Origin: Bacteroidaceae bacterium
Lineage (GTDB): Bacteria; Bacteroidota; Bacteroidia; Bacteroidales; Bacteroidaceae
Reading direction: 5' to 3'
Assembly: GCA_900752815.1 (NCBI GenBank)
Contig: CAADWS010000157.1
Location: 1-32,311, forward strand
Length of the DNA stretch: 32,311 nt
Shown here: in pieces, positions 8,743 through 32,311 of the stretch
Layout: every line of letters starts with the position of its first letter
Numbering within the stretch: the stretch's first letter is position 1
Notes under the pieces: model-generated
Told to the model about the DNA's origin: nothing
Database searches by the model: none
What the model saw: only the letters and a program-made list of their open reading frames with translations
Translations under genes and position numbers: made by a program

Positions 8743-10280
8743 TTATTCGGGCTGAATGGCGTGCAGCGTATTTTTCCCGGCCTTGATGCGGTACTTTTTC
8801 CCGTTGATGATTAGCGTATAGGGCTGGTTGCTCTCCACCTCCACCTGTTTCGATGAGGCCTGATACAGGATGTCGGTCCGGATGGGGCCGAACTTCAGGT
8901 TGCGCAGGCCGTGCGTACCGTTTTCGCTTTTGAGCGACCATCGGATGCACTATTCCAGCGCATTGATTTCACGGAAGCCCAGCATATTTTCGATGAAGAG
9001 AGAGATGGGGCCCAGGGCCGACCATCCGCAGAAGTCGGGGCGGGCCCGCCGGCCATATTCCGTCGAGGGCGCGTCGGCCGACGGACTGTAGCACTCCCAG
9101 ATGGTGTGCGGAGTTATCTTCTGATAAGTGCGCAATTGCTGCCGCACCACCTTTTCGGCCAGGCTGTCGGCCAGTTCGTAGTAACCATATTTCTCGAGCG
9201 CCTTCGTCCCCATGTAGACCATCGGCAGCCACACGCCGCCTTTCCAGTAGTCGCCCGTAGCGTGGTGGTAGTCCTTGTCGTCGCGCGAGAGCGAGGGCCA
9301 GGGATAAGTGCCGCCCATCATGTTTTCGTCGCGCACGGAGCGCACCATCCGTGCCGCCTGCTCCTTGCTGGGAATCTCCGTGAGCAGAGTCCAGAAGGAG
9401 GCCGGCGTCTTGATGCGGCAGGGCTGGCCGGTGGCGATGGCTACGTCGTAGTAGAATCCGTCCTGCTCGTCCCAATACGTCCGGTTGATGTGCTCCTTGA
9501 GTTCCTTGTAGCGTTTTTTCCAGCTGCGCGCCTCCTTCCTGTCGCCGTAGGCTTCGGCCAGCCGGCTGATGCAGAGGGCCGAAAGCGCCTGTTGCGCGAT
9601 GGCGTCAATCCACATGATTTTGTCGTAGCCTCCGGCATCCCGTCCTCTGGGTGTATTGTCCATGCCGCTGGCCCCGCCCGTCCAGGTGAATCCGAGCAGT
9701 TAGCCCTTCTCGTCCCTGATTTGGTTCAGAAAGATGGGGTTGGGACTGACGGCATCGTTGCGGTTGCCGTGCTTCACCGTGTTGAAATAGTCGAAGTGCC
9801 GTTGCAGGTAACGTTTGTTTTTCAGAATTTCCGTTACGTGCTCACGGTCGCCGGTAAATTCGTAGTTGCCATATTCGGCCCAGGCAAACAGGGGCGGATT
9901 GTCGCGCAGGTGAATGCGCAGGGGCGTTGCCTGGTTTTCGAGAATCGGCACATAGAGATATTGTTGAGCGTCTGCTTTCCGGGATAGGCCTCCGGGGCGT
10001 ATTTGGAAAACAGCACCATGAAGCAGGCGTCCCAAATCCAGATTTGGCTGTCGTAGCAGTTTTCATCCAGGTAGGGGGAAGCCGGAAGGCCGGGAGGGCC
10101 GATGCGGACGCGGTCGGCGGCTATGGCCCATGTCTTTTCGTAGAGGTCAACCAGTGCCTCGTCGGGATGTATCACGCGGGGGATTTCCTTTTCCCAGTCC
10201 GGGTGTGCGGCATCTTTGGGTTGTGCGGTGGCATAGCTGGCAGAGGCCAGGGCCAGCAGGCAAATCAGAACTTTTTTCAT
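8743..10280 (-). pseudogene. Decayed secreted glycoside hydrolase, (alpha/alpha)6-barrel (trehalase/GH63/MGH1-like)
   Basis: The minus strand carries one recognisable glycosidase split by three lesions. It starts with a signal peptide (MKKVLICLLALASASYATAQ) at 10280, and SQIWIWDACFMVLF is the trehalase-like barrel signature. A one-base loss near 9959-9965 shifts frame, joining TLNN to YLYVPILENQ. An in-frame TAA at 9700-9702 falls between RDEKG and LLGFTWTGGASGMD. An in-frame TAG at 8950-8952 separates NALE from CIRWSLKSENG. Homologous-looking sequence continues (GGYDKIMWIDAIAQQ, GGTYPWPSLSRD, ATGDYWKGGVWLPMVY) to a proper stop at 8743-8745. Repaired, it would be about 512 aa. It would have hydrolysed an alpha-linked oligosaccharide; the exact substrate cannot be told. 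It is downstream of and co-directional with the GH35 gene. Confidence 0.88.
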
Positions 10281-13300: not shown

Positions 13301-13405
13301 GTAGTTTAGGAAAAACAGTCCTTACTTTAGAAAAAACAGTCCTTACTTTAGGAAAAACAGTCAGTACTTTTGTTTTTTCTGTCGGTACTTTTGAAAAAGA
13401 CAGAC
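13301..13405. repeat. Five tandem 21-bp units upstream of metK
   Basis: Units start at 13301, 13322, 13343, 13364 and 13385, each exactly 21 bases. The consensus is roughly KTACTTTAGGAAAAACAGTC. Units 1-3 are near-identical (GTAGTTT or TTACTTT, then AGRAAAAACAGTC). Units 4 and 5 keep GTACTTTTG but vary after it. The array lies between the divergent GH35 and metK genes and ends about 33 bases before the metK -7 box. A spacing of 21 bp is two DNA helical turns, which fits phased protein-binding sites. A related phased element lies upstream of dapB (21554-21636). Confidence 0.8.
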
Positions 13406-13445: not shown

Positions 13446-13460
13446 CACCCGATTTAAGGA

Positions 13461-13510
13461 ACGAGGACAGATTTGGCTGCTTGCAACCTCACAAAAAAAT
13501 GCTAAAACGA
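13461..13510 (+). ncRNA. SAM-II-like riboswitch aptamer upstream of metK
   Basis: The leader shows the conserved SAM-II (SAM-alpha) core in the right order. It has a P1 strand GAGG (13463-13466), GATTTG, CTTGCA and the partner P1 strand CCTC (13487-13490), then an A-rich segment and GCTAAAA (13501-13507), which forms the pseudoknot side. In the family this aptamer binds S-adenosylmethionine and turns off Met/SAM genes. The context agrees, since the downstream gene makes SAM. P1 here is short and has two extra bases before GATTTG compared with the alphaproteobacterial examples I know. AAATGCT (13497-13503) can alternatively pair with AGCATTT (13530-13536), a plausible switch. Confidence 0.75.
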
Positions 13511-13580
13511 TGTCGGCCCGCTTTGTGGCAGCATTTGCCGGCTTGCTTTTGATGCTACGACAGCCATTTCATGTGACGTT

Positions 13581-13642: not shown

Positions 13643-14935
13643 ATGGGATATCTTTTTACTTCCGAATCGGTGTCTGAAGGACACCCCGACAAGGTGGCCG
13701 ACCAGATTTCGGACGCCGTGCTTGACGAGTTGCTGGCTGATGACCCCAACTCAAAAGTAGCTTGCGAAACTCTTGTTACTACCGGGCAGGTGGTAGTGGC
13801 AGGCGAAGTGAAATCCGAAGCCTATGTGGATTTGCAGGAAGTGGTGCGCCGCACCATCCGCCGCATCGGCTACACCAAGGCCGAGTACAAGTTCGATGCC
13901 GAAAGCTGCGGCATCTTCAGCGCCATTCATGAACAGAGTGCCGACATCAACCGAGGTGTCGACCGGGAAGACCCGATGGAACAGGGAGCCGGCGACCAGG
14001 GCATGATGTTCGGTTATGCCAACAACGAAACCGACACCTTCATGCCGCTGCCCCTTTCGCTGGCGCACGACATCCTCATTGTGCTGGCGGAAATCCGTCG
14101 TGAAGGACAGGTGATGACTTATCTCCGTCCCGACTCGAAAAGTCAGGTGACGGTGGAGTATGACGACAACGACCGTGCCGTGCGCATCGATACCATTGTC
14201 GTCTCCACGCAGCACGACGACTTTATTTCGGCCGAAGAAGCCGGTTCGCAGGAGGCTGCCGACGAGCAGATGCTGGCCCGCATCCGCGAAGATGTCATCA
14301 ATATCCTCATTCCGCGCGTAGTGGAGGAGCGGGTGCATACGCCTGAAATCAAGGAACTCTTTGCCAAGGGCGCCATCAAGTATTACGTCAATCCCACGGG
14401 CAAGTTCGTCATCGGTGGCCCGCACGGCGACACCGGACTGACCGGCCGTAAAATCATCGTTGATACCTACGGCGGCAAGGGTGCCCATGGAGGCGGTGCC
14501 TTCTCGGGCAAGGACCCTTCGAAGGTGGACCGCTCGGCAGCCTATGCCGCCCGCCACATAGCCAAGAACATGGTGGCAGCCGGCGTGGCCGACGAAATGC
14601 TGGTGCAGTTGAGCTATGCCATCGGCGTGGCAGAACCCATTTCCGTTTATGTCAATACCTACGGAAAGAGTCATGTGCAGCTGACCGACGGCGAGATAGC
14701 CGACCGCGTGAAGCGGATTTTCGACCTTCGTCCCCATGCCATCGAGGAACGCCTGAAGCTCCGTTGCCCCATCTATGAGGAAACGGCCAGCTACGGCCAC
14801 GTGGGACGGACACCGGAGAAGGTCGTCAAGCGCTTCCCGCGTCGCAATGGTACCTGCCGTGAGGTGGAGGTGGAACTCTTTACCTGGGAGAAACTCGATT
14901 ATGTCGACCGTGTGAAAGATGCTTTCGGCCTCTGA
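13643..14935 (+). CDS. metK: S-adenosylmethionine synthetase (MetK)
   Basis: Makes S-adenosylmethionine from methionine and ATP in the cytosol. The 430-residue product has the ATP motif SEGHPDK (residues 11-17) at the N-terminus, [12 protein letters not shown] near residue 116, [13 protein letters not shown], and the phosphate-loop [16 protein letters not shown] near residue 283. It is somewhat longer than the E. coli enzyme (384 aa), as usual in Bacteroidota. The ATG at 13643 begins the family-typical [14 protein letters not shown]. It is preceded by a SAM-II-like aptamer and a leader terminator, implying feedback control by its product. A 9-bp terminator follows (14962-15006). Confidence 0.97.
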
Positions 14936-24223: not shown

Positions 24224-24763
24224 GTGGTGACCGTTAAACGATACATCGGCCATTTCCGCCGGCCCTTTGCCTCCAGCCGCTGGAGGAAGTTTGTGCTCGC
24301 CTTGCTTCTGGCGTGCGGACTGTTGGTGCTGGTGCGTGCTTTTCTGTTGACGCAGGTGGAAGTCAGCGTCGACCGTCCCGACTTGGGCCTGTTGGCCGGC
24401 GACCGTCTGCTGGTCAACCGTGTCAGTTATGGCTTGCGTCTGCCTTTTGCCCGTCCGGCCGGAAGCCTCAGATGGGGTAAGTCTCTGCCGGCGCGCGGCG
24501 AGATGGTGGTGTTCGACTATCCTGCCGGGTCCGGTCACTGGCAGGTGGAGCGTACATCGGCCCTGGCGGGCGATACGCTTTGGCATGGTGCCGGCCGGCG
24601 CAGTTATTCCGTTGTGCCCGAAGGTCATTTTGTTGCGGGTCATTATGTCATTCCTGAATATTGTCTGGTGGGGCGTCCGCTTTGCACCACCTATTCTCTT
24701 ACGCCTCCTAAACCGTTTTTCCGTAAAGTGCGCACGTGGCGTTTCTTCCTTCTGATTCCATGA
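24224..24763 (+). CDS. Signal peptidase I-like paralogue without the Ser/Lys dyad
   Basis: A 179-residue membrane-anchored S26-fold protein with one N-terminal TM (about residues 22-43, LALLLACGLLVLVRAFLL). It aligns with the upstream LepB: LLAGDRLLVNRVSYG matches LLTGDYLLVSKFHYG, and QVERTSALAGDTL matches YVKRCVGLPGQTL. At the catalytic Ser position it has Arg51 (in VDRPDL), at the Lys position Glu109, and the GDNRDNSxDSR box is missing. It is therefore probably not a protease. The start is GTG at 24224 or the next GTG; no in-frame ATG fits. It overlaps the WbqC gene by ATGA, so the two are translationally coupled. A regulator or partner of LepB is possible, but that is inference. Confidence 0.75.
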   Translation: MVTVKRYIGHFRRPFASSRWRKFVLALLLACGLLVLVRAFLLTQVEVSVDRPDLGLLAGDRLLVNRVSYGLRLPFARPAGSLRWGKSLPARGEMVVFDYPAGSGHWQVERTSALAGDTLWHGAGRRSYSVVPEGHFVAGHYVIPEYCLVGRPLCTTYSLTPPKPFFRKVRTWRFFLLIP

Positions 24764-25398
24764 ACGCAGTTCTTCTCACTTCGGCCTATCTGGCGCCGGT
24801 TCGCTATTACAGCAAGCTCTATGCCGCTCCCCGTGTCTTCGAGGAGCGTTGTGAATATTATGTGAAACAGACCTACCGCAACCGTTGCGTCATAGCCGGA
24901 CCGGAAGGGCCGCAGGCGCTTACGCTGCCCGTTGAGCATGGAGGCGGGGCGCGTCCTCTGACGCGCGACATCCGGCTGAGCGACCACGGCAATTGGCGGC
25001 ACGTTCATTGGAACGCGTTGGCCAGTGCCTACGAGAAGAGTCCGTATTTTGAATATTATGCCGACGATTTCCGTCCTTTTTATGAGCGTCGCTTCACTTT
25101 TATGGTCGATTTTAATGCCGGTCTCCGCGATTTGGTTTGCGATTTGCTGCAACTGCATCCTGATATTACGGTGACTACGTCCTATGCCGATGCAGCAGCG
25201 TTGGGCGCCGACGACTTTCGCGAAACCATCCGTCCCAAACTCTCTGCCACGGACGACCCTTCCTTCCGTCCTCTTCCTTATTGGCAGGTATTTGCCGGTC
25301 GCACGGGTTTCTTGCCCGATTTGAGTATTGTCGACCTGCTGTTCAATATGGGGCCTGAGGCGCGCCTGGTGCTGCGTGATTCCGTTGTGCAGCCGTAA
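24760..25398 (+). CDS. WbqC family protein
   Basis: A 212-residue cytosolic protein of the WbqC family, found in O-antigen and related surface-polysaccharide loci and, in Bacteroidota, next to lepB. Visible family features are the start MNAVLLTSAYLAPVRYYSKL, YVKQTYRNRCVIAGPEGPQ with TLPVE, WRNVHW-like WRHVHWNALASAYEKSPYFEYY, and the end LSIVDLLFNMGPEA. Biochemical function is not known to me; a role in amino-sugar or glycan building has been proposed from context. The ATG overlaps the stop of the LepB-like gene (ATGA), which favours this start over the upstream in-frame ATG at 24736. Confidence 0.85.
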   Translation: MNAVLLTSAYLAPVRYYSKLYAAPRVFEERCEYYVKQTYRNRCVIAGPEGPQALTLPVEHGGGARPLTRDIRLSDHGNWRHVHWNALASAYEKSPYFEYYADDFRPFYERRFTFMVDFNAGLRDLVCDLLQLHPDITVTTSYADAAALGADDFRETIRPKLSATDDPSFRPLPYWQVFAGRTGFLPDLSIVDLLFNMGPEARLVLRDSVVQP

Positions 25399-25490
25399 AG
25401 GCATGAATCCTGTAGGATGGAGTGATAAGGGCGCACGGTAGCGTATCCCTGCATTCCGTTGACTGCTGCCGATGTTTTCCACGATGCCGG

Positions 25491-25684
25491 ATGTAGGGAC
25501 GTACCGATTAGGTGCGTCCGTTGCCCGGATAGCTCCAGCTGTAAAATAAAAGTACAGCCACCTGAATACTTACGCCTATTCCTCCGCGTTTTTGGACATC
25601 CTCCTATAAGGAAACGGCCATTCATTTCATAAGCATCCCCCGTATAATAAAACGTCGGACGCACCTGCCGGTACGTCCCTACAT
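25491..25684. repeat. REP-pair (BIME-like) element, solo copy A
   Basis: The left end reads ATGTAG, then GGACGTACC-GATTA-GGTGCGTCC (25497-25519). The right end (25657-25684) is the inverse, GGACGCACC-TGCC-GGTACGTCC, then CTACAT. Each end is thus GTAG plus a 9-bp hairpin, and the two face each other as 29-30 bp terminal inverted repeats around about 135 bp of A+T-richer interior. The element is 194 bp long. Conserved sequence also extends about 46 bp to the left (from 25445) and about 28 bp to the right. Confidence 0.85.
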
Positions 25685-25826
25685 CGCAATCATTCTCTCC
25701 CGTTCGTGCCGTTTTCCTTTACAATGGCCGGCATAGGCCATCTTGTATCCCGGATTTCCGCAGACGTGATGTAGCCGCATATCGTGGCTGGTGCGTTTCG
25801 TGTTTATGCTGCATTTAAAACGATAA

Positions 25827-25857
25827 AAGGGAGTCTGTGCAGAGACAGAACTCCCTT
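25827..25857 (-). terminator. Hairpin downstream of the sigma factor operon
   Basis: AAGGGAGT-CTGT (25827-25838) pairs with ACAG-A-ACTCCCTT (25845-25857), with one bulge. On the minus strand TTTTATCGTTTTA follows. It is the likely end of the sigma/TM/DUF4252 transcript, 137 bases past the stop, and could serve the convergent WbqC transcript as well. Confidence 0.55.
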
Positions 25858-25993
25858 GTTTATCTTGGTTTTATCCCGCCGGATAATGCTTTTGAGAGAA
25901 TTGAAACCAGTGCTGGTCTCGGGGGGGTTTTAATAAAGCGAGTGACGTTTTCACTCTTCGCCCTCCGCGTTTCGGAGAAGCCCTTTCTTCTTC

Positions 25994-26491
25994 TTATTGT
26001 GTCTTTTCTACGATGTTCGCGTTTTCCAGTTGATCAAGAAATTTCCGGTTCATTTCTCCCGTCAGGTTGACGATGCAGAACATTCCTTGCTTTTTGCTGA
26101 TGAAAACCATTTCAATGATGGTTTGCTTGTGTTTCCGCAGGTAAATTTCCCGTTCCTTGTCGTTTTTGTAAGGATGGTAGCGGTTCCGGTTGAGACGGGC
26201 CAGTCGCGAGGCTTTGGCAAACAAGCTGTCGGTGGCCGCTGTCTGACCGTTTCTGACGATTTGGATGCTTTTTACCTGCGAAAGCAGATCTTTCAGGTCT
26301 TCGTTTTCTTCCAGTGTGTCCAGCAGCATGATGCGTTCCATCATGTTCGGACTGACCGTGCCGCATATCATGTCCGGATATTCCGTTTTGTGCAGCGCTA
26401 CGAAGCGCGTGGCAAAGTCCTCTCCGCTTTGTGCGGAAGCGGTGGCCAGCAGGCCGAGCGCCAGCATCAGGGTGAGCACTATCCGTTTCAT
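25994..26491 (-). CDS. DUF4252 domain-containing secreted protein
   Basis: A 165-residue protein with a clear signal peptide (MKRIVLTLMLALGLLATASA, cleavage before QSGED). The mature part matches the pattern of Bacteroidota DUF4252 proteins: IMLLDTLEENEDLKDLLSQVKSIQIV, then HPYKNDKEREIYLRKHKQTIIEMVFISKK. The last block resembles a regulatory-like module commonly encoded beside ECF sigma genes. Its function is unknown. Its ATG overlaps the stop of the upstream TM protein (ATGA at 26488-26491), so translation is coupled. Export to the periplasm and the sigma-factor context suggest an envelope-related role; that is inference. Confidence 0.85.
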   Translation of the reverse strand: MKRIVLTLMLALGLLATASAQSGEDFATRFVALHKTEYPDMICGTVSPNMMERIMLLDTLEENEDLKDLLSQVKSIQIVRNGQTAATDSLFAKASRLARLNRNRYHPYKNDKEREIYLRKHKQTIIEMVFISKKQGMFCIVNLTGEMNRKFLDQLENANIVEKTQ

Positions 26492-27036
26492 GAGCGGTTC
26501 GATGGCTTATGCTGGGGATCAACCTGTTCCTTTTTCAGAGTGTCGGCGTCTTCAGGCTGTGTACGCAGCAGTTCCCGTATGGCCTCCATGCCGTTGATTC
26601 CTGCTTCCAGAGCTTCCTTCGGTTCCCGGTAGGTGTCGTGATAGTTCGCCGTGTTGTAGTCCCATGCTCCGTCCTCCTGCTGGCGGTCGAAGGTGTGTTG
26701 GGCGGCGTTTCCCAGCAGTACGACGATGGCCACGGATGCTGCGGCGCGGAACAGCGGGCGCATCCGTCCGGCAACGGTCAGCCGGCGGGCTTTCACCACG
26801 ATACGGCGCTCATTCTTCTCCTGTTCGCCTGCCATTTTCAGCAGTCGGCGGTCGAAGTCTTCGCCCAGTTCCGTTTTCAAGTTCTGTTCTTCATACTCGA
26901 ACAGCGCCTGATAGCGGGCCAGATGCGCCGGCACATCCTTCTGGTGGAAGAACGTGCGCAGGATGCGTTCCTCTTCAATCGAGGTTTCGCAGTTCCAGTA
27001 GCGTTCAAGCAGTTGTTCAATGTATTTATAGTCCAT
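26488..27036 (-). CDS. Single-TM protein encoded next to ECF sigma factor, possible anti-sigma factor
   Basis: A 182-residue protein with an acidic N-terminal helical region (MDYKYIEQLLERYWNCETSIEEERILRTFF), common in small Bacteroidota proteins encoded beside sigma factors. One hydrophobic segment (about residues 97-112, AASVAIVVLLGNAAQ) follows, then a polar C-terminal part. The layout fits a membrane protein with a cytosolic N-domain facing the sigma factor, which is how anti-sigma factors work, but I see no zinc-binding HxxxCxxC motif. It overlaps the sigma gene by 11 bases and the DUF4252 gene by 4, so all three are made together. The anti-sigma role is inferred from context. Confidence 0.7.
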   Translation of the reverse strand: MDYKYIEQLLERYWNCETSIEEERILRTFFHQKDVPAHLARYQALFEYEEQNLKTELGEDFDRRLLKMAGEQEKNERRIVVKARRLTVAGRMRPLFRAAASVAIVVLLGNAAQHTFDRQQEDGAWDYNTANYHDTYREPKEALEAGINGMEAIRELLRTQPEDADTLKKEQVDPQHKPSNRS

Positions 27037-27538
27037 ATTGTTCTATTCTTTCATACTCCCGGCGGAGGGTTTGCCGGGCCCGGAATATCAGCACTTTCAC
27101 ATTTTCTTCCGTCACGTTGAGCACTTCCGCCGTCTCCCTGTAGCTTTTTCCTTCGATGTCGCGCAGCTGCAGCGCGGAGCGTTGTTTTTCGGGCAGGCGG
27201 TCAAAGAGTTCGTGTATCCGCCGCAGCTTCTCTTCGCGTTCCAGCTGCACGTCGGGTGTCGGACTGGGGTCGGCTGTTTCGGCGGTCATCTCGTCGAGTG
27301 GCAGGTGCTGTGCCTCCTTTTTTTCGTGCCGGTCAAGCGCCAGATTTCTGCATACGGTCATGCAGTATGCCTCCAGCGACACATCGGCGTCGAGTTCTCC
27401 GCGCTTGCTCCATACTCTGATGAGGGTGTCCTGCGTGACGTCTTCGGCTTCGGCGCGGTCGAGCGTGATACGTAGCGCCAACCGGAAAAGCTGGTTTTTC
27501 AGTGGCAAAAGATCGTATCTGAAATCAATTTCTTTCAT
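27026..27538 (-). CDS. ECF-type RNA polymerase sigma factor
   Basis: A 170-residue sigma-70 family protein with only regions 2 and 4. Region 2 includes LALRITLDRAEAEDVTQDTLIRVW (core binding and -10 recognition). Region 4 carries LPEKQRSALQLRDIEGKSY, then ETAEVLNVTEENVKVLIFRAR, the helix-turn-helix for the -35 element. The linker (QHLPLDEMTAETADPSPTPD) is acidic. It leads a three-gene overlapping operon with a TM protein and a DUF4252 protein. On the minus strand TAACTTTC (27570-27577) is a near-match to the -7 box 31 bases upstream, but I cannot identify an autoregulated ECF promoter with confidence. The regulon cannot be told from this window. Confidence 0.92.
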   Translation of the reverse strand: MKEIDFRYDLLPLKNQLFRLALRITLDRAEAEDVTQDTLIRVWSKRGELDADVSLEAYCMTVCRNLALDRHEKKEAQHLPLDEMTAETADPSPTPDVQLEREEKLRRIHELFDRLPEKQRSALQLRDIEGKSYRETAEVLNVTEENVKVLIFRARQTLRREYERIEQYGL

Positions 27539-27729
27539 TGCTCTTACTGTATAGACGGGTAAGTGGACAGAAAGTTACAGCCGAAACCCATTTTTTTTCG
27601 TTTTTTCTGTTTTTTTCTTGTATTGATGTGGTGGTTTCCCCGTTTTGGCGTGTTTCCGGGGGCGGTTTCCCTGTTTCGCCGGTAAGGGTGCGGGCAGGGG
27701 GCCGGAGCCGTTGCCGGAGGGGTGGAGGG

Positions 27730-27765
27730 AAAAAAGGCGGGGCGGGAGTCCGATGCTCCCGCCCC
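27730..27765 (-). terminator. Terminator of the GH20 gene
   Basis: A perfect 10-bp G+C stem (GGGGCGGGAG, 27739-27748, with CTCCCGCCCC, 27756-27765) is followed on the minus strand by GCC and a six-T run (27730-27735). It starts 6 bases after the GH20 stop. Confidence 0.92.
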
Positions 27766-27770
27766 GGTGG

Positions 27771-30032
27771 TTATTCCGCTTTCTTGATAAAGACAAGTCC
27801 GGCCGTGTCGTTGCCGTTCACGCCGTTTGCCGTCACTTCGATGTAGAAGGGGGTACCGGCTTCAAACTGGTCCAGGCGGAAACGGTAGGTGGCGGTGGCG
27901 TGGTTCTTGTCCACGCTGACGCTCTGTTCCACTTCCGCCATCAGTTCGTCGCGCTTCAGCAGCCGCAGCCGTCCCAGTTGCAGGGGGTGGGTGCCGCGCG
28001 TATGGATGAACGTCACTTCATAGGTGCCGTTTTCCGTTATCTTTCCGGTGCATTCAAAGCGCCAGGTGGCCGGCTGCAGCTGGATTTGCAGCGGTTTCCA
28101 GGCTGCGGCGTACTGGCCGTACTGGCGGTAGGCCGAATAGTCGGGAGCCGTGTAGAGCGGCAGCGAGTAGTGGCGCGGACTCACCACGGTCATGGCGCGG
28201 AAATCGTCCTTGCGTGCCACGGTTACCGGCGCCGTGTAGCGCGGCGAGTGGATATTGGGGTAGCTGCCGTCGGTGGTATACACGATGTCGGCCCCTTCCA
28301 CGGCCGGTTTCAGCCGGTAGGTGAAGCCGCCGTCCGTTTCCTTCACCTCCTCCACGATGGGTTCGGGCACACGGTAGTGGCAGTCCTTGCGGTCCAGGCG
28401 GGCAAAGTGCCAGCCCAGCCGTCGCCGGAAGTCCTCATAGTTGCGGTCGGCCTGTCGCGCCCAGGCCACTTCCGATAGTGCCAGCAGGCGGGGGAAGGTG
28501 AGATATTCCGCGTAGTTTTCCGAGCGGTTTTCGTCCAGATAGGCAATTTCCTGCAGCACCGTGCCGTGGATGAACTGGTCGCTCCAGAAGCAGCCCTGCA
28601 CGCCCAGCGTGGCCGAGCCTTCCGACCAGTCGGCGATGGGCAGCGAATAGGCGCGCTCCACCGAGATGGGCGGCATCCAGGTGGCGGCTTTCACTTCGCC
28701 CGGCGTGCGGCTTTCCGGGAAGTCGAAATACATGTGTGTGGCCGGTGTCAGCACCGCCTTGTGTCCCTGCTGCCGGGCCGTCAGCGTGTCCTTGGCGTTG
28801 TGCCACACCACGCTCACCACCGGAGTTTCCACCTTGCCGCGCAGGATGATTTCCTCCCAGCCCATCACGGTGCGTCCTTTCTCCGCCATCATCCGCGCCA
28901 CCACGTTGGTCAGGTAGCCTTGCAGTTCCGAAGCCTTCTTCAGTCCTTCGCGCTTCATCAGTGCCTGGCAGCGGGGGCATTGTTCCCAGCGGGTGTATAC
29001 CGCCTCGTCGCCGCCGATGTTGATGTATTTCGAGGGAAACAGCTCCACCGTTTCTTCCAGCACGTCGCGCAGGAATTGCAGCGACGTTTCCTTGCCCACG
29101 CACAGCAGGTCGCGGCTGATGAAGTGCTGCACCGGCATTTCGTGCTGCTGTCCCGTGCAGCTCAGCCACGGATAGGCTACCACGGCCGAGAGCATGTGGG
29201 CCGGAAATTCTATTTCGGGGATGATTTCCACGCCCCGCACGGCGGCGTAGGCCACGATTTCACGGATGTCGTCCTGCGTGTAGTAGCCTCCCAGGCGGCG
29301 GGTGTCGTCGCCGGCCCAGGCGCCCACCTGCGTCAGCCGCGGGTATTTCCTGATTTCCAGGCGCCAGCCCGAGTCGTCGATGAAGTGGAACTGCAGCTTG
29401 TTCAGTTTGTACATGGCCATCAGGTCGATGTACTTTTTCACGAAGTCCTTGTCATAGAAGTAGCGGGCCACGTCGAGCATCATGCCGCGCCACGGACGGT
29501 TGGGGGCGTCCTCCACCGTTACCGGTGCCACGCTCCATTCCGTTTCCCGCTGCCGCACCTGGCCATACACTTCGGGCGGGAGCAGTTGCAGCAGCGTCTG
29601 TATGCCGTAGAAGGCACCCGCCGCGTCGCGGGCTGTGATGCGCACCGTTTTGCTGTCGGCCGTCAGGCGGTAGCCTTCCGCGCGTTTCACGGCCGTGGTG
29701 TCCAGTTCCAGCACGATGCCTTTTCGTCCCCTTCCCGCCTTCAGCTTCAGGTCGTAGCCGGTGGGGCCGGCCAGGGTGGTTTGCAGATATTCCGCCTGCG
29801 CCTTCAGTGCCGGGTCGTGGTGGATGACCGTTTTCTCCGTCAGTCGGAAGTTTTCGCCGCTGCGCATTTCCAGGTGCGCCGGAACGGGAATGATTTGCTG
29901 TCTTCGGTCGGCCGGCTGCCCTTCACCGGCAGCGCCTGCCGTCAGGCACCACAAGGCCGCTGCGGCCAGTGTGCAGGCCGGTAGCCGGAAACTCTTCCGG
30001 ATGTTGCTCCGGTTGTGTAGAAAGTTTTTCAT
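27771..30032 (-). CDS. Secreted GH20 beta-N-acetylhexosaminidase
   Basis: Exo-glycosidase removing terminal GlcNAc/GalNAc from host or dietary glycans by substrate-assisted catalysis. The 753-residue product starts with a signal peptide (hydrophobic core about residues 18-33, cleavage near AGAA-GEG). A GH20b-type N-domain (about 45-175) precedes the TIM barrel. The barrel carries HFIDDSGWRLEI, PEIEFPAHM and the catalytic pair Asp342-Glu343 in NIGGDEAVY, plus GWEEI and GCFWSDQF. The C-terminal part has a chitobiase-type segment (VYTTDGSYPN) and a terminal beta-sandwich. Both catalytic residues are present, so it is probably active. Together with the GH35 enzyme it suits mucin or N-glycan trimming. 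It is 84 bases downstream of the methyltransferase gene and may share its transcript. Confidence 0.94.
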   Translation of the reverse strand: MKNFLHNRSNIRKSFRLPACTLAAAALWCLTAGAAGEGQPADRRQQIIPVPAHLEMRSGENFRLTEKTVIHHDPALKAQAEYLQTTLAGPTGYDLKLKAGRGRKGIVLELDTTAVKRAEGYRLTADSKTVRITARDAAGAFYGIQTLLQLLPPEVYGQVRQRETEWSVAPVTVEDAPNRPWRGMMLDVARYFYDKDFVKKYIDLMAMYKLNKLQFHFIDDSGWRLEIRKYPRLTQVGAWAGDDTRRLGGYYTQDDIREIVAYAAVRGVEIIPEIEFPAHMLSAVVAYPWLSCTGQQHEMPVQHFISRDLLCVGKETSLQFLRDVLEETVELFPSKYINIGGDEAVYTRWEQCPRCQALMKREGLKKASELQGYLTNVVARMMAEKGRTVMGWEEIILRGKVETPVVSVVWHNAKDTLTARQQGHKAVLTPATHMYFDFPESRTPGEVKAATWMPPISVERAYSLPIADWSEGSATLGVQGCFWSDQFIHGTVLQEIAYLDENRSENYAEYLTFPRLLALSEVAWARQADRNYEDFRRRLGWHFARLDRKDCHYRVPEPIVEEVKETDGGFTYRLKPAVEGADIVYTTDGSYPNIHSPRYTAPVTVARKDDFRAMTVVSPRHYSLPLYTAPDYSAYRQYGQYAAAWKPLQIQLQPATWRFECTGKITENGTYEVTFIHTRGTHPLQLGRLRLLKRDELMAEVEQSVSVDKNHATATYRFRLDQFEAGTPFYIEVTANGVNGNDTAGLVFIKKAE

Positions 30033-30116
30033 GATTTGTTTTTTTGTTGGTGGTTATGAGTAATGAATGATTCGGATAAATTCAAGGTTCGGCCCCATTG
30101 GAGAGGGGAGAGGTTG

Positions 30117-31310
30117 TTATATTATATAAGGAGTGCCCGCTTCTGTTGTTCCGTCGTGTGGCGGAGCTTCCTTCCCGGAAGTTTCGTCGCCCCGGGCGTG
30201 CAGTTCCGGTTTCCGGCAGTCGATGAGAACGTGCCGTCCGTCGGCCAGCGTGGTGGCAAACCAGTAGGCGTCGCCGCCTTCGCGCAGTTTGAGTCGTTTG
30301 CGCAGGTCCGCCACCGTTCCCGGAAAGTTCCGCACCGTCAGGTTGGCCCTTTCCTCCACCGAGCGGCACAGGTCGCGCAGTGCCCGCTTGCCGAAGCCCG
30401 TCACCCCCTTTATCTCGAAGCAGCGCCCAGGGAAGCCGTCCACCAGGTGGTCGGCCGTATACAGGTGTGTGTTCGGGTGCAGTTTCCGCAGTCCGTATCG
30501 GGCCGCCGTCAGTTTGAAGGCCCCCGCCTTCAGCAGCGCCGCGCTGGGTTCATACAGGTATCGGCCCGTGTCGTCGGCCATTTCCGCCACGGCCGCCTCC
30601 TCCTCTTCCGGTCGGAATCGGAACCGGTGCGTGCCGTCGGCGCAGACGATGTCATAGTGTCCGGCGTCGGGCCGCAGCACCAGCAGCAGTTCCTTGCATT
30701 CCCCGCCGTCGCCCACGATGTGCGCTTCCGCCACACATCCCAGTTCGCGGGCCGCGAGCGTCAGGTCGAGCATGGGCGAGAGTTTCAGCAGCACGCAGTC
30801 CGTTTTTTCCCAGAGCAGCGGCAGCAGCGCCTTTACGTCCGGTTCACAGTCGCCGATGCGCACCGTTTTCCGTCCCGCGCTGTCGCGGCGTGCCGGGTCC
30901 ATGTAGATGAGGTCCGTGTGCGGCATGCCGCGCAGCACCTCCCTGCCGTCTCCCTCCGTCACCTCCGCCTGCGTCAGTCCCAGCCGCTCGAAGTTACGGC
31001 GTGCCGTCTCGCAGAGCGCCCCCTGGCGTTCCACGTAGAGCGCGTGGGTAAAGTGGCGTGCCAGTATGCTGAAGTCCACCCCCAGTCCGCCGGTGAGGTC
31101 CGCCATGCGTTCGCCCCCGTTGGGGAAGAGCCGTGCCGCCACCTCCCCCTTGTAGCTTGCTGTCCGTTCCCCCGAGCATTGTTCCAGTGCCAGACGGTGT
31201 GGGCATACCAGTCCCGCTGCCGCCCATGTCGGCAGTTTGCGGGCCATCAGCCCTTGCAGGACCGTCGTTTCGTCCATTGTTGCGATACCGTTTGTTTTTC
31301 GGGGTTTCAT
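30117..31310 (-). CDS. THUMP-like domain class I SAM-dependent methyltransferase
   Basis: A 397-residue cytosolic protein. The Rossmann methyltransferase core shows motif I in MADLTGGLGVDFS (about residues 69-81), an acidic end of strand 2 (YVERQG), and motif IV DLIYMDPARRD (about residues 132-142), where DPAR replaces the NPPY of N-methylases. This pattern and the C-terminal THUMP-like part (VKGF-type FEIKGVTGFGKRALRD, then NLTVRNFPGTVADLRKRLKL) match a Bacteroidota family usually annotated as a THUMP-like or SAM-dependent methyltransferase. RNA is the likely substrate, but it is unproven. Met12 (31277) is an alternative start. The last about 30 residues (ARGDETSGKEAPPHDG...) look disordered. 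A -7 box lies at 31352-31359. Confidence 0.82.
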   Translation of the reverse strand: MKPRKTNGIATMDETTVLQGLMARKLPTWAAAGLVCPHRLALEQCSGERTASYKGEVAARLFPNGGERMADLTGGLGVDFSILARHFTHALYVERQGALCETARRNFERLGLTQAEVTEGDGREVLRGMPHTDLIYMDPARRDSAGRKTVRIGDCEPDVKALLPLLWEKTDCVLLKLSPMLDLTLAARELGCVAEAHIVGDGGECKELLLVLRPDAGHYDIVCADGTHRFRFRPEEEEAAVAEMADDTGRYLYEPSAALLKAGAFKLTAARYGLRKLHPNTHLYTADHLVDGFPGRCFEIKGVTGFGKRALRDLCRSVEERANLTVRNFPGTVADLRKRLKLREGGDAYWFATTLADGRHVLIDCRKPELHARGDETSGKEAPPHDGTTEAGTPYII

Positions 31311-31351
31311 CAGAAATCAGGCTAAAGTTCGTGTACAAATTTCTTCGGGTG

Positions 31352-31359
31352 CAAAGATA
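31352..31359 (-). promoter_or_regulatory. -7 promoter box of the methyltransferase gene
   Basis: TATCTTTG on the minus strand fits TAnnTTTG and lies 41 bases before the ATG at 31310. No TTTG box is found at 19-21 bases. The stretch from here to 31449 holds nothing else recognisable. Confidence 0.55.
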
Positions 31360-31496
31360 GTGAAAGGCGAGTGCAATGGCAAGACGAAAACAAAGTTTTC
31401 AGGCATGTCATTGCCGAGCTGCCTCCTGTCTTATGTAAAGATAGTGAATATCCCTACATTCCGTTGACTGCCTGCCGGAGCTTTCCGCGATGCCGG

Positions 31497-31657
31497 ATGT
31501 AGGGACGTACCGATTAGGTGCGTCCGTTGCCTGGATACGCATGTCTTTTTCTTCCTTCGCGTTTTTGGGCATTCTTCCTTTATCGGAACCGTCGTTCCCG
31601 TCATAAGATCCGCCCGTTTTGGAAAGGTCGGACGCACCTGCCGGTACGTCCCTACAT
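31497..31657. repeat. REP-pair element, copy B (internally deleted)
   Basis: The left end (31497-31526) and right end (31629-31657) are the same GTAG-plus-hairpin palindromes as in copy A, with loops GATTA and TGCC. The 161-bp length reflects loss of the interior block holding CCAGCTG and GTACAGCC in the other copies. Confidence 0.85.
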
Positions 31658-31744
31658 CGCAATCATTATCTCCCGTTCGTGGCGTTTGCTGCATCCCATC
31701 CCTGTATTCCGTTGACCGCCCGCCGGTGTTTTCCGCGATGCCTG

Positions 31745-31941
31745 ATGTAGGGACGTACCGCCAGCTGCGTCCGTTGCCCGGATACCTCCATCTGCCCAAT
31801 CAAGGTGCAGCCGCCCGGGTGCGCACGTCTTTTCCTTCCTCCGCGTTTTTCGGCATCTTTCAATATGGAAACCGTCGTTCATGGTCTTAGCATCCGCCCG
31901 TTTTGGAAAGGTCGGACGCACCTGCCGGTACGTCCCTACAT
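31745..31941. repeat. REP-pair element, copy C
   Basis: 197 bp. The left palindrome (31745-31773) has diverged to GGACGTACC-GCCA-GCTGCGTCC, which weakens its own stem. The right palindrome (31913-31941) is intact. Confidence 0.85.
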
Positions 31942-32054
31942 CGCAATCATTCTCCTCCGTTTGTGACGTTTGCAAGCATCATTCCCACGCGCCCTTCGCC
32001 GCATCCTATCCCTGCATTCCGTTGACTGCCCGTAGCCGTTTTCCGCGGTGCCGG

Positions 32055-32254
32055 ATGTAGGGACGTACCGATTAGGTGCGTCCGTTGTCCGGATACCTCC
32101 AGCTGCCAAATAAAAGGTACAGCCGCCCGAAAACTCACGGCTATTCCTTTCTCAGCGTTTGGGGGGCATCTTCCAGTATGGAAACCTCCGTTCACATCAT
32201 AAGCATCCGCACGTTTTGGAAACGTTGGACGCACCTGCCGGTACGTCCCTACAT
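32055..32254. repeat. REP-pair element, copy D
   Basis: 200 bp. The left palindrome (32055-32084) is identical to copy A. The right one (32226-32254) differs by one outer base (TGGACG for CGGACG). A further unit begins at 32295 and runs off the window. Confidence 0.85.
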
Positions 32255-32311
32255 CGCAATCATTCTCCTCCGTTCGTGGTGTTTGCCGCATCCTATCCCT
32301 TCATTCCGTTG

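Follow-up and report, generated by a model that had tools for sequence, protein, structure and literature searches.

Most of what is known about repetitive extragenic palindromic (REP) sequences and the REP-associated tyrosine transposases (RAYTs) comes from Proteobacteria. We describe here a REP-bearing element, present in four copies, from a member of the Bacteroidaceae; it lies on a stretch of 32,311 nucleotides (contig CAADWS010000157.1 of assembly GCA_900752815.1) which, at its full length, we call the window. In Pseudomonas fluorescens SBW25, inverted REP pairs are termed REPINs (REP doublets forming hairpins) and, in the account drawn on here (PMC3116915), form tandem clusters of near-identical units with 5' and shorter 3' flanks. 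Proteobacterial RAYTs are reported to cut single-stranded DNA at CT, mostly near the REP on either side and sometimes at a distance, and to require GTAG (PMC8266576). A 2013 survey gives GTAG repeats for Proteobacteria, Cyanobacteria, Chloroflexi and the PVC (Planctomycetes, Verrucomicrobia, Chlamydiae) group and, in its portion on phyla, only CGTC repeats for Bacteroidetes (PMC3733652). RAYT subclasses 2.4 and 2.6 are stated to occur in Bacteroidetes (PMC6006769), and REP-like sequences have been counted in three Bacteroidota species (PMC12306157). No paper devoted to the REPs of Bacteroidales was among the matches listed by our literature search.

We consider it highly probable that the window's four copies represent REP doublets, the REPINs from which bacterial interspersed mosaic elements (BIMEs) are built, and that they are non-autonomous units spread in trans by a RAYT, a single-strand transposase of the HuH/Y1 type. 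As to kind, the element is very probably a new family of RAYT-type REP pairs, which are a known sort of genome parasite in bacteria. An initial annotation, made from the letters of the window, had already proposed a REP/BIME family, and that reading is supported by copies in a related genome, by their arrangement in inverted pairs and by a RAYT gene flanked by the same stem, as well as by the pattern of RAYT clades and by a fold match.

The window contains GTAGGGACGTACC at eight exact sites, four on each strand, and these lie where the initial annotation had placed the GTAG-hairpin ends of its four copies. When up to two mismatches were allowed, GTAGGGACGYACC matched the window 12 times; 100 dinucleotide shuffles gave 0.92 matches on average and never more than 4. 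A scan for GTAG directly 5' of a stem returned the eight REP sites and one extra site at 9547, while the same scan with five other tetranucleotides gave one to four window sites apiece. All eight REPs are imperfect palindromes with GTAG directly 5' of them, as in a REP, and seven have an intact stem. The form given in the initial annotation, a hairpin with one T-G pair, holds for these seven, which read GGACGTACC, a loop of 4-5 nt and GGTGCGTCC, and which have a 9-bp stem with a single T-G pair and a stem foot of GGA (pairs G-C, G-C and A-T). It fails for the left hairpin of copy 3, which reads GGACGTACC GCCA GCTGCGTCC, is damaged and has one pair broken. Folding three of the hairpins as DNA gave z-scores of -4.46 (copy 1 left), -3.59 (copy 1 right) and -0.86 (copy 3 left). 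The left REP loops are GATTA (GCCA in copy 3) and the right REP loops GGCA, so the two ends of one unit are not identical. In four of four units the REPs form an inverted pair whose ends face inwards, which agrees with what had been annotated. The units and their REPs are as follows.

25444..25717, plus strand: copy 1, whole unit of left arm, left REP, interior, right REP and right arm (four-copy alignment, edges, identities of the parts)
25493..25519, plus strand: copy 1 left REP, GTAG and 9-bp hairpin with loop GATTA (pattern and stem scans, DNA fold z -4.46)
25657..25682, minus strand: copy 1 right REP, loop GGCA (pattern and stem scans, DNA fold z -3.59)
31449..31690, plus strand: copy 2, first unit of the array, about 37 nt of interior missing (alignment; right edge by analogy with copy 1)
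31499..31525, plus strand: copy 2 left REP (pattern and stem scans)
31630..31655, minus strand: copy 2 right REP (pattern and stem scans)
31697..31974, plus strand: copy 3, second unit of the array (alignment; right edge by analogy with copy 1)
31747..31772, plus strand: copy 3 left REP, damaged stem (stem scan, DNA fold z -0.86)
31914..31939, minus strand: copy 3 right REP (pattern and stem scans)
32007..32287, plus strand: copy 4, third unit of the array (alignment; right edge by analogy with copy 1)
32057..32083, plus strand: copy 4 left REP (pattern and stem scans)
32227..32252, minus strand: copy 4 right REP (pattern and stem scans)
about 32294..32311, plus strand: start of the left arm of a fifth unit, ending with the window (edge comparison)

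In the alignment of the copies, the homology of copy 1 runs from TATCCC at 25444 to GTTT at 25717 and so also covers 25444-25490 and 25683-25717, outside the hairpins. About 47-49 nt on the left and 35 nt on the right are shared beyond GTAG, including with the copy that lies 6 kb away; the DNA common to both sites therefore includes sequence outside GTAG, and the conserved unit in the window does not stop at its GTAG tags, as that of a REP or REPIN would. The left edge falls on the identical letter in copies 1 and 2, and the DNA before this edge is unlike. When the arms of copy 1 were compared with those of copy 4, their scores were reached by none of 20,000 random window stretches. Pairwise identity among the four copies is 0.85 for the left arm, 0.95 for the left REP, 0.76 for the interior, 1.00 for the right REP and 0.86 for the right arm, which indicates that the hairpins have been kept or homogenised more than the rest of the unit. 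The inner part of copy 4 (32055-32254) folds as DNA at -46.9 kcal/mol (z -6.94), mainly via the long terminal repeats. The initial annotation had also remarked on a conserved interior. The conservation stands, at the identity given above, but its description as unusual does not, since conserved interiors and flanks are on record for REPIN clusters, as are tandem clusters with flanks, which leaves the array itself no novelty (PMC3116915, in its description of such clusters).

REP copy number and RAYT association were examined in related gut bacteria, whose genomes and loci we designate by G and L numbers. The stem pattern, with Y at its variable base, occurs in 3 of 399 family genomes, namely G304 (nine matches), G297 (three) and G185 (one). 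The window's own T-G stem is found in 3 of 249 genomes of G297's genus: three times in G297, once in G447 and, as a large population, at 130 exact sites in G481. The reversed pattern had no match in those 249 genomes. Orientation was scored in 100 stretches of G481 covering 894 kb of about 2.6 Mb, where up to three substitutions were accepted and 63 REPs were found. Thirty-eight of them make up 19 head-to-head pairs of 125-164 bp and 25 are single, seven of the latter within 260 bp of the end of a stretch. Neighbouring REPs within 250 bp were head-to-head in 19 cases, tail-to-tail in 14 and in the same orientation in none. A check on copies and orientation proposed in the initial annotation thus came out, in this relative, with 130 REPs and with neighbours that are all inverted. 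Some of the G481 pairs lie in tandem arrays that have the layout of the window, in which arm, REP, interior, REP and arm are repeated.

In the relatives, REPs of this kind are associated with RAYT genes. The one match to the RAYT query in G481 is a gene in L147 that has REP pairs with the window's T-G stem on both sides, and in G304 and G447 the stem that flanks the RAYT genes is of the CACC form. The initial annotation had suggested looking for a palindrome-flanked Y1 transposase gene; such genes are found in relatives, with the same stem in the first case and the CACC form in the other two. At E 1e-6, the G304 RAYT query has matches in 55 of 301 family genomes. Counting GTAG followed by a perfect or one-wobble stem of at least 8 pairs, we found 64 such hairpins at 30 RAYT-like loci of the family that total 97,045 bases; 16 of these loci hold one, and the set includes longer Y1 proteins that are not compact RAYTs. 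Eighty control loci, with 1,333,452 bases or 14 times the length of the RAYT-like loci, held three, all in one locus. At the RAYT-like loci, eleven other orders of the letters of GTAG gave 0-2 hairpins each, with one exception: TAGG, which overlaps GTAGG, gave 13.

In a tree of 27 rows, the RAYTs beside GTAG-GGGA/GAGA hairpins (eight labelled rows plus L098) form one clade with support of 100/100, and the eight RAYT rows beside GTAG-GGGG hairpins fall outside it. The labels for REP type on this tree are our own assignments and 11 of the 27 rows carry none; beside the gene of L098, which lies inside the clade, no GTAG hairpin was found. Three loci (L102, L117 and L124), missed by the motif search, are absent from the trees, and L116 and L120 were removed from the second tree as long branches. 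To judge from the tree, REP type follows RAYT clade (8 + 8 labelled rows of 27).

Motifs of the clade were scored on the best 120 of 1,208 homologues, and the counts that follow refer to these 120. The histidine motif reads NHIH in 68, NHVH in 44 and NHLH in 8, and WQ is present in 116. The tyrosine motif is YIxNNV in 91 and YIxNNI in 14, so that 105 carry YIxNN[VI]; two have YIxNNP, one has YIxNNE and 12 were unread. Three bear the JGI annotation "REP element-mobilizing transposase RayT", three others are called "transposase", and two have a precomputed Pfam domain. The sole NCBIfam match of the RAYTs from the relatives' loci is NF047646, the family of REP-associated tyrosine transposases. 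A structural model of the homologue P0026 (mean predicted local distance difference test score, pLDDT, 81.3; predicted template modelling score, pTM, 0.74) has as its best fold match 4er8, the E. coli RAYT with its REP hairpin, at E 9.2e-07 and template modelling (TM) scores of 0.50/0.55. In E-value this match is level with two chains of the ISDra2 transposase and ahead of IS608. A comparison of the G481 RAYT sequence with solved structures found nothing. Separately, we dropped the idea that Pfam misses this RAYT clade, as the Y1_Tnp domain is recognised at E 0.01 in 30 of 42 members.

Longer Y1 transposase-like frames of 328-451 aa are common in the family (L094 1261-2292, L116, L119-L123 and L125). 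The strict GTAG hairpin was not found beside L094 or L116; L119-L125 were scanned in the pooled count only. In G043 (L099 327-704), a RAYT match with an internal stop codon is surrounded by many GTAGAGACGCATA palindromes; it may be a RAYT in decay, set in a dense cluster of REPs. In G130 (L108), an array of another REP type stands beside a RAYT and has two 279-nt stretches that are 94% identical.

Outer arms are present in G481 as well. Two classes can be told apart in the G481 sequence that borders GTAG on the outside, A (TTCTGTGAGAATATTGCGTAnAnT) and B (ATCTCACCACAAGT); they were drawn by eye, post hoc, from the same loci. Of the 63 REPs, 29 have A, 27 have B, four both and three neither. 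By the same fuzzy test, 6.5% of random 45-mers count as A, 12.7% as B and 0.8% as both. Fifteen of the 19 pairs have one A and one B (the other four being B/none, none/B, B/B and B/both) and, with two different outer arms, the unit looks polar. When one flank was kept per class and 2.5 kb, which still leaves some near-copies among the rows, 20 places with A and 18 with B remained, and conservation declines outwards. Interiors differ among the L131, L142 and L136/L147 types of G481 and the arms are common to them; L134 has no clear arms. In the window, the right arm aligns with class A over GAGAATGATTGCG, adjacent to GTAG, with a score that is reached in 4, 106, 6 and 0 of 5000 shuffles for copies 1-4, which are not independent of one another. 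The left arm of the window matches neither class. The exact pattern of box A was found in 1 of 393 genomes of the order, which is G481 itself, and near other REPs (34 outer flanks) 9 and 25 of 1000 shuffles scored as high as the best flanks did, which is chance level for 34 tests or little better. It is well supported that the arms belong to the repeated unit in both G481 and the window; a kinship between the two sets of arms is no more than suggestive.

As to mechanism, we infer that the host has or had a RAYT of this kind. A REP on single-stranded DNA would fold into GTAG plus hairpin; a RAYT of the YIxNN[V/I] clade would recognise it, cut nearby and move the unit; if it cut outside the hairpins, the arms would travel with the unit; and a second process, either tandem duplication or a circular intermediate, would build arrays like the one at 31449-32311. 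The left edge of the window unit, TATCCCT, contains CT, which proves nothing. We offer more tentatively, as a proposal with less than even prospects, that the mobile unit of this RAYT clade is polar rather than a symmetric REPIN ending at GTAG. One of its sides would carry a box A of up to about 24 nt that resembles TTCTGTGAGAATATTGCG, the opposite side a box B of about 14 nt that resembles ATCTCACCACAAGT; the boxes would set cut sites and the direction of transfer like the left and right ends of IS200/IS605 elements, and the right arm of the window, GAGAATGATTGCG, would be box A in another genus. If the outer arms do move with the unit, they give a handle on where RAYTs cut and on how REP pairs and arrays arise. 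In E. coli, the definition of a BIME already describes a mosaic in which other conserved motifs surround the palindromes, and this makes the arms less novel.

Several observations weigh against reading the copies as RAYT-spread REP doublets. The abundance of the REP and its cognate RAYT are known from relatives, and movement of the unit is our inference. A profile built from 42 members found no RAYT of this clade in the window (E <= 10, 592 open frames of at least 30 aa). The profile does recover the RAYTs of L081 and L147, and tblastn of 147 RAYT-like sequences against the window gave nothing better than E 0.015, so the initial annotation's statement that the window has no RAYT holds for this clade. 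G297 has three REPs of this stem, yet no RAYT was found there. The NF047646 scores of the RAYTs, 49 to 58 bits, are below the cut-off of 80, Pfam at E 0.01 recognises neither the RAYT of L146 nor that of L147, and the fold match of P0026 to 4er8 is moderate. The outer arms extend past the GTAG-to-GTAG unit. Finally, the 281-bp unit used as a DNA query matched none of the nine nearest genomes and none of 58 genomes of the nearest genus, and no window-type REP was found in 80 WbqC loci, which makes the window's REP patchy.

The explanation that survives best beside RAYT-spread doublets, though we regard it as improbable, is that the units are functional repeats (a terminator, a regulatory RNA or a protein-binding array) duplicated locally by recombination, with no transposase involved. 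The copies are known only at two places 6 kb apart, and no RAYT is present in the window. Their interior is conserved, and copy 1 sits where the WbqC and DUF4252 genes converge, a position at which hairpins can terminate transcription. Set against this, the same stem is dispersed in G481 and located at RAYT genes, and the hairpins are better kept than the interior. No Rfam family reaches its gathering score in the units. An RNA function of the interior we rejected: only 1 of 49 predicted pairs of the RNA consensus fold has a change on both sides.

Very improbable, in our estimate, is a miniature inverted-repeat transposable element (MITE) of an IS200/IS605 insertion sequence with subterminal hairpins, moved by an ordinary TnpA rather than a RAYT. 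The different outer arms do make the unit polar, the transposases of IS608 and ISDra2 are also close in fold, and the ends of IS200/IS605 elements are described as lying outside their hairpins (PMC8266576). However, the hairpins here are inverted and each carries the GTAG tag, which is how REP pairs are built; the genes found with them are RAYT-like, with NF047646 as their sole NCBIfam match; and a single gene is flanked by many REPs and not by one left and one right end. Weakest of all, and scarcely credible, is the MITE of a DDE-type insertion sequence that the initial annotation had named as a rival: the 17-bp perfect terminal inverted repeats GATGTAGGGACGTACCG of copies 1, 2 and 4 and the total size of 160-200 bp would suit it, but each terminal repeat is itself a hairpin, the relatives' REPs sit at RAYT genes, and a target-site duplication is unsupported, with no direct repeat of at least 4 bp at copy 1, the one copy tested (three boundary choices with 8 nt of play, under which chance alone yields a 5-bp repeat in 520 of 2000 tests).

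Turning to the surroundings, the array, which runs from 31449 past the end of the window, adjoins a gene with THUMP-like and PG_1098 domains that we take to be a methyltransferase. Ranked by WbqC (best 80 of 591 matches), the nearest species are a Bacteroidaceae genome (67% identity) and an Alloprevotella genome (65%). Compared with L001, the 20.6-kb locus of the 67% match, window positions 24760-31310 differ in arrangement: in L001, WbqC is directly followed by the THUMP-like/methyltransferase gene, and the DUF4252, anti-sigma, sigma and GH20 genes separating the two in the window are unmatched. The aligned end of WbqC in L001 is 111 nt from the aligned end of the THUMP-like/methyltransferase gene, with no window-type REP. 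This arrangement means that the segment with copy 1 was either gained in the window or lost in L001. As DUF4252, the sigma factor and GH20 also had no match in that locus, L001 is no clean empty site. Copy 1 searched against plasmids and copy 4 against phages gave no match at E 0.01. Among viral contigs, one that IMG/VR lists as such (L126, 7957-8115) has one REP pair with the same T-G stem and the loop CCC, within a longer inverted repeat of another kind that forms its outer arms. Elsewhere in the window are a SAM-II riboswitch at 13457-13515 on the plus strand (score 60.6 bits, gathering score 44), which precedes a 430-aa frame at 13643-14935 by about 130 nt; a 21-bp tandem repeat (TTTAGGAAAAACAGTCCTTAC) in three copies at 13305-13370, just upstream of the riboswitch; and a tRNA gene found by Rfam at 322-405 on the minus strand.

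Altogether, the logic of REPs and RAYTs is present in Bacteroidaceae too, with REP type tracking RAYT clade, and G481 offers one genome with a large REP population and the RAYT in place. The G481 pairs resemble those of the window in having the same 9-bp imperfect stem with a T-G pair, in being head-to-head and in forming arrays with conserved interior and arms; they differ in their loop, GT, in an interior that was not seen to be alike and in a left arm that is unlike, the right arm being suggestively alike. With the GTAG REPs of the 2013 survey (PMC3733652), which are often near RAYT genes, the REPs of the window and its relatives share the GTAG-tagged palindrome, although they occur in a phylum that the survey, in its list of phyla, gives for CGTC repeats only. 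RAYT subclass 2.4 (group 4 of Bertels; Cyanobacteria and Bacteroidetes), as characterised in PMC6006769, is alike in combining NH[IFV]H and WQ, which the relatives' RAYTs also carry (best 120 of 1,208), and in a REP stem foot of three G-C-rich pairs. Its tyrosine motif is YIxNNP, whereas that of the RAYTs described here is YIxNN[VI], and the stem foot of the window is GGA; as their motif is not YIxNNP, we do not file the relatives' RAYTs under this subclass. The REPINs of SBW25, as presented in PMC3116915, are like the repeats of the window and its relatives in having the inverted pair as unit, RAYT genes beside clusters and tandem clusters that include the flanks; what sets the present family apart from them is that its arms are found at dispersed copies as well (in G481 and at copy 1 of the window), that its interior is long, and that its REP and RAYT are of another type.

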